Shown in pieces: positions 28,038 to 42,435 of a stretch of DNA of 64,000 nucleotides. The position numbers and the translations under genes are program-made. Positions within the stretch are counted from its first letter, which is position 1, and each line of letters opens with the position of its first letter. The stretch covers positions 1 through 64,000 of the forward strand of contig JAIVFH010000072.1 of the NCBI GenBank assembly GCA_025765595.1. The letters run 5' to 3'. The notes under the pieces were generated by a model. That model was given only the letters and a program-made list of their open reading frames with translations. It was not told where the DNA came from and made no database searches. The DNA comes from Obelidium mucronatum. Taxonomy: Eukaryota; Chytridiomycota; Chytridiomycetes; Chytridiales; Chytriomycetaceae.

Positions 28038-28491
28038 TTACAACTTGACTGCCGCAGAAACAACAAATTCAACAAGGAACTTCTCGTTGACCAAGTTGGC
28101 TTGAACGCATGCACGGACTGGGGCGTGTCCCTCAGGAACCCATGAGTCCCAAATCTCGTTCAACACGGGAACATCGCTATAAGGGGGCCGATTTAATTAA
28201 GTTCAACTCTTGAAGAGGATCACAAAGTGGGACAACAACATTGAAAAAAAAGGAAGCCCGCCTTTACCTCAAGTGCTTGACGTAAATAAGGACCTGGAGA
28301 AGGTGGTGCTTGTCGCTGGATGCCAATGCAAGAGTGCTCTCAACTTGGTGGAGGCATTGCTTCACTTGTTCAGCAAACCCAAGAGTTTCGTCGTCCGCAA
28401 CTTCGACGAGGTTGATCGTTCCGTTGTGAACAACAGCCGAGGCATAGCGACGGGTGACGTTGATTCTGCGGATGTGTGCGGCAACAGACAT
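28038..28491 (-). CDS. RidA/YjgF/UK114 family protein
   Basis: RidA enzymes hydrolyse reactive enamine/imine intermediates from PLP enzymes (2-aminoacrylate to pyruvate). From ATG 28491 the chain reads INVTRRYASAVVHNGTINLV, then EVADDETLGFAEQVKQCLHQ, the RidA 'Q...al.n...L' helix. An 83-nt intron (GTAAAG...TAG) joins to DVPVLNEIWDSWVPEGHAPV and RACVQANLVNEKFLVEFVVS. The PVRACVQ block carries the conserved arginine that binds the substrate carboxylate in this family. Length about 120 residues, typical of the family; no clear mitochondrial presequence, so probably cytosolic. It diverges from the receptor-like gene at 28,875. Confidence 0.82.
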
Positions 28492-28874
28492 GTTTTTTAA
28501 GGTGTTTTTGGAAAGAGACACAAGCCACACCGAAAACATTCCTCATACACACGCCAACCACGTACAACAGCGTACAACAACGACTGATGCGTACAATACG
28601 ATAGTTTCCTAAAACTCAGTTACGCCTTTTCTTTGCAACTTAGTCCCTTCAACAACTCTTTCTCACCCACGATGAGCATCGAGGAAAGTTATGCCCCATT
28701 AACCGCAGTCAATTATTTCGTCCTTTCTATTATTAAATCTGAAATAGGAACAAGTGATTTTCGTTACAGATGTTCCGACAATCCTAAAACCAAAAACACA
28801 AAAAGAACTAGAAAAGGCCTTTTTCCTACTGCTGCAGAGGAAGAATCGCGTTTCAGAGCACCGATTTTTCAAAT
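28492..28874. promoter_or_regulatory. Divergent intergenic region (RidA / receptor-like gene)
   Basis: 383 bases between divergent starts. It presumably holds both promoters and 5' leaders. A short frame starting at 28,633 could be an upstream peptide but has no supporting feature. Confidence 0.4.
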
Positions 28875-31800
28875 ATGCAGCTACTTGCTTTGGCGCTTTC
28901 TGTGATCGTCTCCTCGCCGCTTATTCTTGCAGCTACAAATTGGACACAATATGGCTACTTACCTGATCCTAGGGCCAATGGGCCACCATGTCCAATTGCA
29001 AACAACTCATATGGATGGAATAAACTCAAAAACGCGGATGGATCGCTATACACCGCGTCGAAACGGCCAATTGTTGTCACTGCCCAGACTTGGGACAGCT
29101 TTTTTATCAACGCTCATGTCATGCAGTATTTGCTTGAAATTATGGGATATCAGTGAGACAAATTTCATTTAATAATCGTTATTTAAATCTAACGCATCTC
29201 CTCTTGTTGTTTCTTTCAGAGTCTTGGTAGCAAAACAGGTGTGCTATTCTTGTGTATTATTCTTAAGCAATAATTTATTATTCACACAAAAACAAGGCTG
29301 TTGGTTATGCTCTCGGTCCCGATATGTATGCGAGTGTGATTGACTTGTTCCTAGAATCTTGTAAGAAATTGAATTGATTGCTGTTGGTACCTATAAGTAA
29401 AACGTTGGCATTTTATTCATAGGGCCAGAAGATCAAGCAAACTACGTTCAAATGACTCAAGTTGATCGCGTCGCTATAGACTTGGGTGCAACGGGATATT
29501 CAGGAATGATTGGTCTTTACGTACCCACTTCGTTGGTCAACCGATATCCTGAATGGGGTTTTGATTTCTGGAGATTTTTGCTGCATCCCGAAGCCAGAGC
29601 ACTACTTCCTCAAAGCGGTAGTACCCCGCCTTTCTTAGTTGATGGTAAACCGCAATGTGATGGAAGACCAAAACAGTGTATGAATGGAGTGAGTACGGCC
29701 AATCCCGTCAAAACTAGCTTAACCAAATATTTTAGACATATACTCCAGCACAGTGTAAAGTACCGGGCGCTAAATGTGTGGAGCTTTGGGCTTATGACCC
29801 TGGCTATTCACCAAGTAACTTCCAACGAATCATCGATAGCATGAATCTGATGGTAACAATGAAGTTTATTGGATGGTCTGCGGATAAAGAGATGCAAGCG
29901 GCTCTTGACGCCGGGAAAGACGTTTTTGTGTATAATTGGTCACCTAGTGTGTTTGTTGCCTCCAATGATATCACCAAAGTACTCTTTCCAGCAACAGATC
30001 ACGAGCAATACATGCACTTGATCAAAGGTGTGGTGACTTTAATTTGTAACGTCGAACCGTTATTTGGCTTAAACAACAAACAGACCGAGACAATGCATTC
30101 GTTAGTACTGATGTACCCACCATCATCATTCACAAGGTATTTTGTATACTCTCTGCGTCCGGTTTCTAACTTTCAAGAAAATAGCTTTCGAGTCATAAAT
30201 TCCTCACAGACTTTCCCGAGCTGCAATCATTTGCAAACAAATACCAGATTCTCGATGCTCATATGAACGAAATGCTCAAAAGCACAGTTTCTCAGAATCT
30301 TAATTTTAGCCAAGCTGCATGTCATTGGATCCAACACAATGAAGATATCTGGAGTCCTTGGATTCCAAAGCCCCCAAAATCTGTTGGTGAGCTATATTTA
30401 TTGTTTGATTAGCGGTTTTTTCCTAAATATTTAATACCAGATTCGTGTGGAGTGGGATTCGGGCGCTATTTTTCAGGTGTCATTTATTCATGTATTTCAT
30501 GTCCACCTGGAACATTTAATTGGGCATCAAATAACACTGGAGTCTGTGAGGTGACCATAATATTTTGGCTAGACTTAAGCACCATTTTTAACTCTTAATA
30601 CCTTTTTTCTTTCGAAGCTTTGCCCACCAGAGCTTGACTGTCCCGGTGGCGCCGAGGTTAATGCTAAAAATGGAATATGGATGCCCAGTACTGTGGGATT
30701 GAAACATCCGGACTTTTACATTTGCCCTATTTCGTCGACGTGTTGTTCAAATGGCACATGTCCTCCAAACACATGCTCTCCTTCATTTACGGGGACTGTA
30801 TGTCTCGACTGTAGCGAACCTGACCACTACTTGTGGCATGGAAAATGCACAAAGTGCAGTGCTGCAGGTGGAATGAGCTTCTACTTTATTCTCGTTGGTG
30901 CATTCTTTGGAGCGGTCTTGCTGTTGTACTTGCCATATGAAGAGGCTCCCACAGTTGAAATCCTATTCTTTTACTTTCAAGTAACTCACTACATATTTGA
31001 AGACCAAACGAATGGCCTTCTCAGCGTTCCGGGATTGAGTACTTTCCTGAACATTGCTGCCTTGAATATTGATGGCATGGTATCAGACTGCACTTTGCCA
31101 ATCAAAGGACTTTCAAAAATGACATTCCGATTCTTTTTACCATTGTTGATCTTATTCTACATTGTCGCAATCTATTTTTTAATGAGAATTCTCCAGTCAA
31201 CTGGAATGGTATCAGGGGAGTCTGTTGGCAGATTTACCCCTTACTATATGCGAGGACAAAGCTTGAGTTTAATTTGCTTCAGGGCAACAATTGTTGTCTT
31301 AACTTTTGTTGTGATGCCATTGATTGACGCTAGTTTGATTCTGTAAGTGAAAGGTCTTTTCAAAAGTTGTTCACTGATCTTTGTGAATAGCTTGCAATGC
31401 AAAGACATTCTTGGAAAGTATGTCTTGACCCGAGCACCCGAAATTCAGTGTTTTGGCTCGACCCATGCTCCAGCAGCTGCATTGGCGGTTATCATTCTCA
31501 TAATTTTTTTGGGCATTGTACCTCTTCTCACTGCTGTTATTTTGCGTTACCTTGCAAAAGGCGATAACATTCGTTATGAAGAAGAAGGAATCTCAAACAT
31601 TCAAAAGCTATTTCAATGTCTCTACATTGTCTTTAAGCCTGAAATGTATTGGATGATGCCAGTAACGATTATTGAAAAGGGTGTTGTCTCAATTTTGTTC
31701 ACAATGCTTGTGAAGTACGAAGGTAAATGCTAGCGCATACGATGATCTATTTGTATTGAATTGTTGAAATTAGAAATGATCAAAATCAATGTGTACATTC

Positions 31801-32390
31801 TATTTTTGGGATTCCTCTGTGCTACAAGAATCTATTGGCAGCCTTATCACAACCACCTCGAAGCTTACTTGGTAAGCTCGAATTATCAAGCCTTAAATTA
31901 AAACCAGAGAAGTATCTTACTCGTTTATCTTTCTCTTTCACAGAATCGTGAGATTAGTCTTGGTATTCTCATTATGATCGCATTTCGGCAATTCACAGAT
32001 CATTATGGAGTGACTACTGCCTCTCTTGTTCAGATTGGAGTTGTTGTTTTTCTTCCAGTAGTATTGCATATCATTAGATGGACTCGTTCCAACTTTGAGA
32101 AACACCAAGATGCTATTGCAGATGTCATCAATAGTGCGAAACTCACCAGCAAAATGTCTGCCTCAACATCTCAGAAAGGAGGTTTAGGATCTCAGAATTC
32201 TCTTTCTAGATCCCAATCCCAGCACGGAATTAAACCGTCGGGATCTCACAAAAAGAAGATGCGCGGCTCTGTAGAAAAACTTGGAACAAGCAAGTTGAGA
32301 ACCGCATCAATGCTGGATCGTTCTCGCAATAATATTGCAAATCCCAATCCCAGGGAAGGAGATCCACTAAATAGCACCCAAGCTCCATAA
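28875..32390 (+). CDS. Membrane protein with OpuAC-like binding domain, Cys-rich segment and 8-9 TM helices
   Basis: About ten exons encode roughly 985 residues. A signal peptide (LLALALSVIVSSPLILAA) is followed by a type II periplasmic-binding fold resembling OpuAC, the glycine-betaine/choline binding component of ABC importers: IVVTAQTWDSFFINAHVMQY with LLEIMGYQ, LDAGKDVFVYNWSPSVF, and a terminal helix pair ending ACHWIQHNEDIWSPWIPKP. Residues about 400-520 are Cys-rich (CISCPPGTF, CPPELDCPGGAE, CLDCSEPDHYLWHGKCTKC). Then come eight or nine hydrophobic helices (for example FYFILVGAFFGAVLLLYL, FFLPLLILFYIVAIYFLM, ALAVIILIIFLGIVPLL, LVQIGVVVFLPVVLHII) and a basic Ser-rich cytosolic tail. This layout suggests a ligand-gated surface receptor or channel rather than a transporter; the ligand and signalling mode are unknown. 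Confidence 0.72.

Positions 32391-32465: not shown

Positions 32466-42435
<9,970 letters not shown>

Follow-up and report, generated by a model that had tools for sequence, protein, structure and literature searches.

Layout and recurrence of the gene

We analyzed a window of 64,000 nucleotides (i.e., positions 1 to 64,000 of the forward strand of contig JAIVFH010000072.1, assembly GCA_025765595.1) from Obelidium mucronatum, which a taxonomy look-up places in the Chytridiales (Chytriomycetaceae). A gene on its + strand encodes a protein in which a solute-binding domain of the OpuAC type precedes a multi-pass membrane part. The gene and the parts of its product are as follows (positions in the window).

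28875..32390, + strand: whole gene, 12 exons, 961 amino acids plus stop
28875-29152, 29220-29238, 29297-29360, 29423-29688, 29736-30027, 30084-30136, + strand: exons 1 to 6
30185-30386, 30441-30550, 30618-31342, 31391-31722, 31774-31871, 31944-32390, + strand: exons 7 to 12
28875..28934, + strand: residues 1 to 20, hydrophobic start resembling a signal peptide (putative, from hydropathy)
29052..30442 (introns included), + strand: residues 60 to 392, OpuAC-type (type II) solute-binding domain (Pfam PF04069; PDB profile matches 4xz6 and 7yle)
30443..30869, + strand: residues 393 to 512, Cys-rich linker with 15 Cys (composition; sub-cut-off Ephrin_rec_like and NCD3G matches in family members)
30870..32102, + strand: residues 513 to 866, membrane part with about nine membrane-length helices (hydropathy and AlphaFold model; not 7tm_3 by profile)
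32103..32387, + strand: residues 867 to 961, basic Ser-rich tail (composition)

The 11 introns (47 to 72 bases) are all of the GT-AG type, the joined frame contains no inner stop, and the product is identical at 961 of 961 residues to a public prediction from O. mucronatum (P0001; BDR26DRAFT_937957). A first-pass annotation, made from the sequence of the window, had described an OpuAC domain followed by a Cys-rich segment, eight or nine helices, and a basic Ser-rich tail in a zoosporic fungus. This layout was borne out by the Pfam match, the 15 Cys residues, the helix counts, and the composition of the tail (17 Ser, 15 Lys/Arg, and 6 Asp/Glu). At the sequence level, the fusion of OpuAC to a multi-pass membrane protein is confirmed.

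The same domain order, which the first-pass annotation had suggested seeking in other zoosporic fungi, was found in other chytrids and throughout the genome of O. mucronatum itself. A protein search returned 19 matches, the window protein among them, which belong to six genera (i.e., Obelidium, Rhizoclosmatium, Podochytrium, Siphonaria, Chytriomyces, and Entophlyctis). Chytriomyces hyalinus and Entophlyctis luteolus belong to the Chytridiales according to the look-up, and we take Rhizoclosmatium, Podochytrium, and Siphonaria to be chytrids as well; the Siphonaria rows P0004 and P0005 carry the source mark UNVERIFIED_CONTAM. OpuAC was matched in 16 of the 19 members at E values up to 1, the misses being P0016, P0019, and, it seems, P0013, which starts after the OpuAC domain. 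All 12 loci that the window protein matched in its own genome hold binding-part and membrane-part matches in order, with one of them (C288b) cut by a contig end. Three pairs of these loci (C301/C5b, C288a/C9a, and C288b/C9b) share 94 to 98.5% DNA identity over 2 to 4 kb, and the contig pairs involved (C9/C288 and C5/C301) may be haplotype copies in the assembly. Merging the three pairs therefore leaves 9 distinct places. The direct OpuAC matches in this genome (four of four) all fall in the family of the window protein. The E. luteolus member P0011 has a polynucleotide kinase/phosphatase (PNK3P and AAA_33) ahead of the family parts, possibly through a gene-model fusion.

The binding domain and its pocket

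Pfam OpuAC matched the window protein at an E value of 7.6e-14 (52.4 bits; cut-off, 21.2) in two stretches, the best of which spans residues 257 to 374. A profile built from the OpuAC parts of 7 relatives, out of ten rows longer than 300 residues, matched the solved structures 4xz6 (TmoX, a trimethylamine N-oxide [TMAO]-binding protein; E = 5.7e-13), 7yle (DmpX, a dimethylsulfoniopropionate [DMSP]-binding protein; E = 1.9e-9), and 2b4l (the OpuAC protein itself; E = 3.7e-5). The lobe order of 4xz6 and 7yle is that of the window protein, while the order in 2b4l is swapped. The second lobe was matched firmly in both 4xz6 and 7yle (stretch E values of 4e-6 and 8.9e-6), whereas the first lobe was matched less well (0.0021 and 3.2), so that the first-lobe match to 7yle counts as weak. 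The AlphaFold model of the OpuAC part was poor (mean predicted local distance difference test score, 47.7), and it is by sequence that both lobes match solved structures.

The pocket residues of TmoX are listed in a passage of PMC8918994 as Trp55, Trp102, Phe106, Glu131, Trp177, Phe220, and Trp222, and those of DmpX in a passage of PMC10030565 as Trp35, Thr64, Trp84, Glu113, Trp152, Ala153, Tyr200, and Trp202. Four aromatic positions of the window protein align with residues of these pockets and would form a box for an onium group:

29091..29093, + strand: W73, aligned with TmoX Trp55 and DmpX Trp35
29360..29424, + strand: W121, its codon split by the intron at 29361-29422, aligned with TmoX Trp102 and DmpX Trp84
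29931..29939, + strand: Y275 and W277, with N276 between them, aligned with TmoX Phe220/Trp222 and DmpX Tyr200/Trp202

The aromatic cage that the first-pass annotation had proposed to inspect is thus kept at these positions. The window protein resembles TmoX and DmpX in both lobes by profile (the first weakly) and in these four aromatics, while TmoX and DmpX are solute-binding proteins of bacterial importers. The four residues support a methylated-onium ligand, short of proof.

We followed the pocket through an alignment of 18 rows, with gaps set aside. The W121 column holds W in 11 of the 12 rows with a letter, the exception being the short row P0005, which has a G close to its start, and the Y275 column holds Y or F in 15 of 15. 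The complete set of four aromatics is present in 7 rows, which represent five genera (Obelidium, Rhizoclosmatium, Podochytrium, Chytriomyces, and Entophlyctis). They are also present in all C9/C288 paralogues of the same genome (i.e., two distinct types, each in two near-identical copies), which are only 34 to 38% identical to the window protein (81 to 94 identities over 237 to 245 positions). Since the pocket aromatics are kept in these rows and paralogues, the onium box appears to be under constraint in the window type.

The Cys-rich linker and the membrane part

Sub-cut-off matches at E values up to 1 relate the linker to Ephrin_rec_like (14 of the 19 family members) and to NCD3G, the nine-cysteine linker of class C G-protein-coupled receptors (GPCRs) (3 of the 19; best E value, 0.00068); Pfam did not match NCD3G in the window protein. 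A search with residues 500 to 870 returned 22 proteins, three of which (P0019, P0021, and P0022) carry, according to Pfam, an ANF_receptor domain (i.e., a type I flytrap) ahead of the Cys-rich and membrane unit. In this unit, they are 54%, 45%, and 44% identical, respectively, to the window protein. P0019, from C. hyalinus, is publicly annotated as GABA type B receptor subunit 1; P0021 (marked as partial) and P0022 are from Irineochytrium annulatum. The ANF type was found at none of the 12 O. mucronatum loci retrieved with the window protein. Judged from these sequences, the ligand domains appear to have been swapped on one membrane engine. Because the two domains belong to different fold classes, their occurrence on the same unit is the strongest indication that it receives input from a ligand domain, and the class-C-like logic suggested by the first-pass annotation gains support from the three relatives.

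The Cys-rich and membrane profile also matched a protein of the ciliate Tetrahymena malaccensis (P0025; search E value, 5.7e-7; hhalign probability, 97.2%; five shuffled controls, 0.1 to 0.5%; reversed control, 8.8%). Since the membrane part alone gave 3.1%, the Cys-rich part carries most of this signal. P0025 shares the Cys-rich and multi-pass layout but, unlike the window protein, has no OpuAC domain by Pfam.

The number of membrane helices is nine in the AlphaFold model of P0016, a shorter paralogue (21 sequences; a moderate model, predicted template modeling score of 0.62), and 8 to 10 by hydropathy. The Ser-rich tail would lie on the cytoplasmic side, since the number of helices is odd. 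A comparable fusion has been described: according to a passage of Krishnan et al. 2012 (PMC3251606), OpuAC occurs in six Allomyces macrogynus proteins that were placed in the glutamate (class C) GPCR family, and NCD3G is absent from all of the new non-metazoan members. The window protein could likewise belong to the class C GPCRs, with a seven-helix domain that diverged past recognition and with OpuAC substituting for the type I flytrap, like the Allomyces proteins. Against this, the class C domain 7tm_3 was not matched in the window protein by Pfam at E values up to 10, and hhalign gave the membrane unit a probability of 0.1 to 0.2% with six class C seven-transmembrane (7TM) domains of the same genome (control, 99.9%), the profiles being shallow (7 and 3 to 6 rows). 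Furthermore, no C72 row was present among the 150 scored 7tm_3 matches of the genome (25 of the 175 candidates were unscored), nine membrane-length helices were counted instead of seven, and GPR156 tied with unrelated rows. As a class C 7TM domain, the membrane part was rejected by the sequence tests, and we regard a diverged class C receptor as unlikely.

Ionotropic glutamate receptors have binding lobes that are split by pore helices. This layout is also the subject of a passage in PMC5168858. The candidate was ruled out, because the OpuAC part of the window protein is uninterrupted and lies on the N-terminal side of the helices.

Separately from the window gene, the class C GPCR domain 7tm_3 has 150 matches at the exon level in the O. 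mucronatum genome, many of them in tandem, and G-alpha has 147, with clusters on contigs such as C1, C7, C66, C249, and C488. These counts (of exons, not genes) suggest a very large class C repertoire and a G-alpha expansion. The window gene adjoins a PI3K-like kinase, recognized by its matches to the PI3/PI4 kinase and FAT domains (33497-35985, - strand), and upstream of the window gene lies a weak, sub-cut-off L-PSP (RidA-type) match (28264-28542, - strand).

A candidate sensor and its place among fungal receptors

On the basis of its domains, we predict with moderate confidence that the window protein is a cell-surface sensor composed of an OpuAC binding domain, a Cys-rich linker, a membrane part of about nine helices with no recognizable class C GPCR domain, and a basic Ser-rich tail. 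The aromatic pocket would hold a small compound with a methylated ammonium or sulfonium group (of the betaine, choline, carnitine, or DMSP type), and the OpuAC lobes would then close. The linker, stiffened by disulfides, would relay this motion to the membrane unit, which would change state and thereby signal inside the cell. For the output, an ion-conducting unit resembling transient receptor potential (TRP) channels is slightly favored ahead of a G-protein-coupling one. When the P0016 model was compared with viral models by Foldseek, ranks 1 to 3 were Megaviridae proteins (probability, 1.00; E = 9e-4 to 1.5e-2), of which rank 2 is named Transient receptor potential ion channel. A more specific and tentative proposal is that chytrids have a class of receptors whose TRP-like channel unit is gated by interchangeable extracellular flytraps (OpuAC type II or ANF type I), i.e., a non-GPCR counterpart of class C and ionotropic glutamate receptors.

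Several observations weigh against this interpretation. The TRP-like match comes from a moderate model with poor superposition (root mean square deviation, 8 to 12), takes its identity from a database label, and lacks PDB support; Pfam TRP (PF06011) was not matched at E values up to 10, and a genome search for it stayed silent, as it also did for its controls, so that this silence carries no weight. No PDB fold was matched at E values up to 0.001, every PDB match having an E value of >0.2, and PNS1 (E = 0.26; probability, 0.08), which we take to be a choline-transporter-like protein, headed the PDB rows obtained with the membrane model. PNS1 would suit a transporter or uptake protein whose tethered binding domain passes solute to the membrane part, as in bacterial importers. 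OpuAC proteins normally serve importers, and in some bacterial systems the binding domain is fused to the membrane subunit. However, the Pfam scan of the window protein found no transporter family, the PDB matches are as poor as stated, and the Cys-rich and membrane unit also carries ANF_receptor, a domain known from receptors; we consider a transporter improbable.

In the pocket, DmpX Glu113 aligns with I150 (in the weak first-lobe match), and none of the 13 rows with a letter at column 150 has Glu. TmoX Glu131, Phe106, and Trp177 lie outside the aligned stretches, which leaves the fourth pocket Trp (W177) without a counterpart there; W227 or Y233, kept in four of four and two of four C9/C288 paralogues, respectively, could replace it. 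W is found at W277 in 13 of 16 rows, with Y or F in three R. globosum rows, and at W73 in 7 of 9, with T or K in the other 2. The missing Glu, the R. globosum substitutions at W277, and the T that one of these rows has at W73 would also fit a binding domain that is worn down or has been repurposed to mediate adhesion or to contact the wall or peptides, without any small ligand. Given that the four aromatics are retained in 7 rows of five genera and in two distant paralogue types, we hold this to be very improbable; some relatives probably have a changed ligand.

The closest published systems set the sensor reading in context. Like the Allomyces OpuAC receptors, the window protein combines an outside OpuAC domain with a multi-pass membrane part in a zoosporic fungus. 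By their published description, those receptors differ in being placed in class C 7TM, whereas its own membrane part was not detected as 7tm_3; the two may still be of one kind. Passages of PMC5168858 describe class C GPCRs of gut fungi with sugar-type type II binding domains, as well as distinct proteins that combine type II binding with membrane helices, for which a zoospore-directing role is mentioned as a possibility. These GPCRs are likewise fungal membrane proteins with a type II binding domain but differ in their sugar-type domains and class C 7TM, and the same passages report no ANF domain or aligned nine-cysteine domain. Given the Allomyces and gut-fungal reports, fungal membrane receptors that carry an OpuAC or other type II domain are not new. 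The first-pass annotation was correct in the domain layout and the pocket aromatics, and its class-C-like logic gained support, while the sensing of betaine, choline, or another osmolyte is putative; it had missed that the membrane part fails the class C sequence tests and that OpuAC-bearing GPCRs had been reported in Allomyces (PMC3251606). Our literature search found no precedent for a membrane unit that accepts flytraps of both types and fails the class C test.

For zoospores of other chytrids, glycine betaine and homarine were among the tested standards, all of which were positive, according to a passage of PMC5334607; its abstract describes all but host extracts and a carbohydrate mix as weak triggers. 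These attractant data neither support nor exclude the betaine idea for the window protein. If the sensor reading is true, the class C GPCR would not be the only membrane engine on which fungi placed binding domains of prokaryotic type: there would be a second one, on which the ligand domain was swapped. This would parallel the evolution of class C and ionotropic glutamate receptors. The window protein would then be a concrete candidate for the sensing of methylated osmolytes by zoospores.
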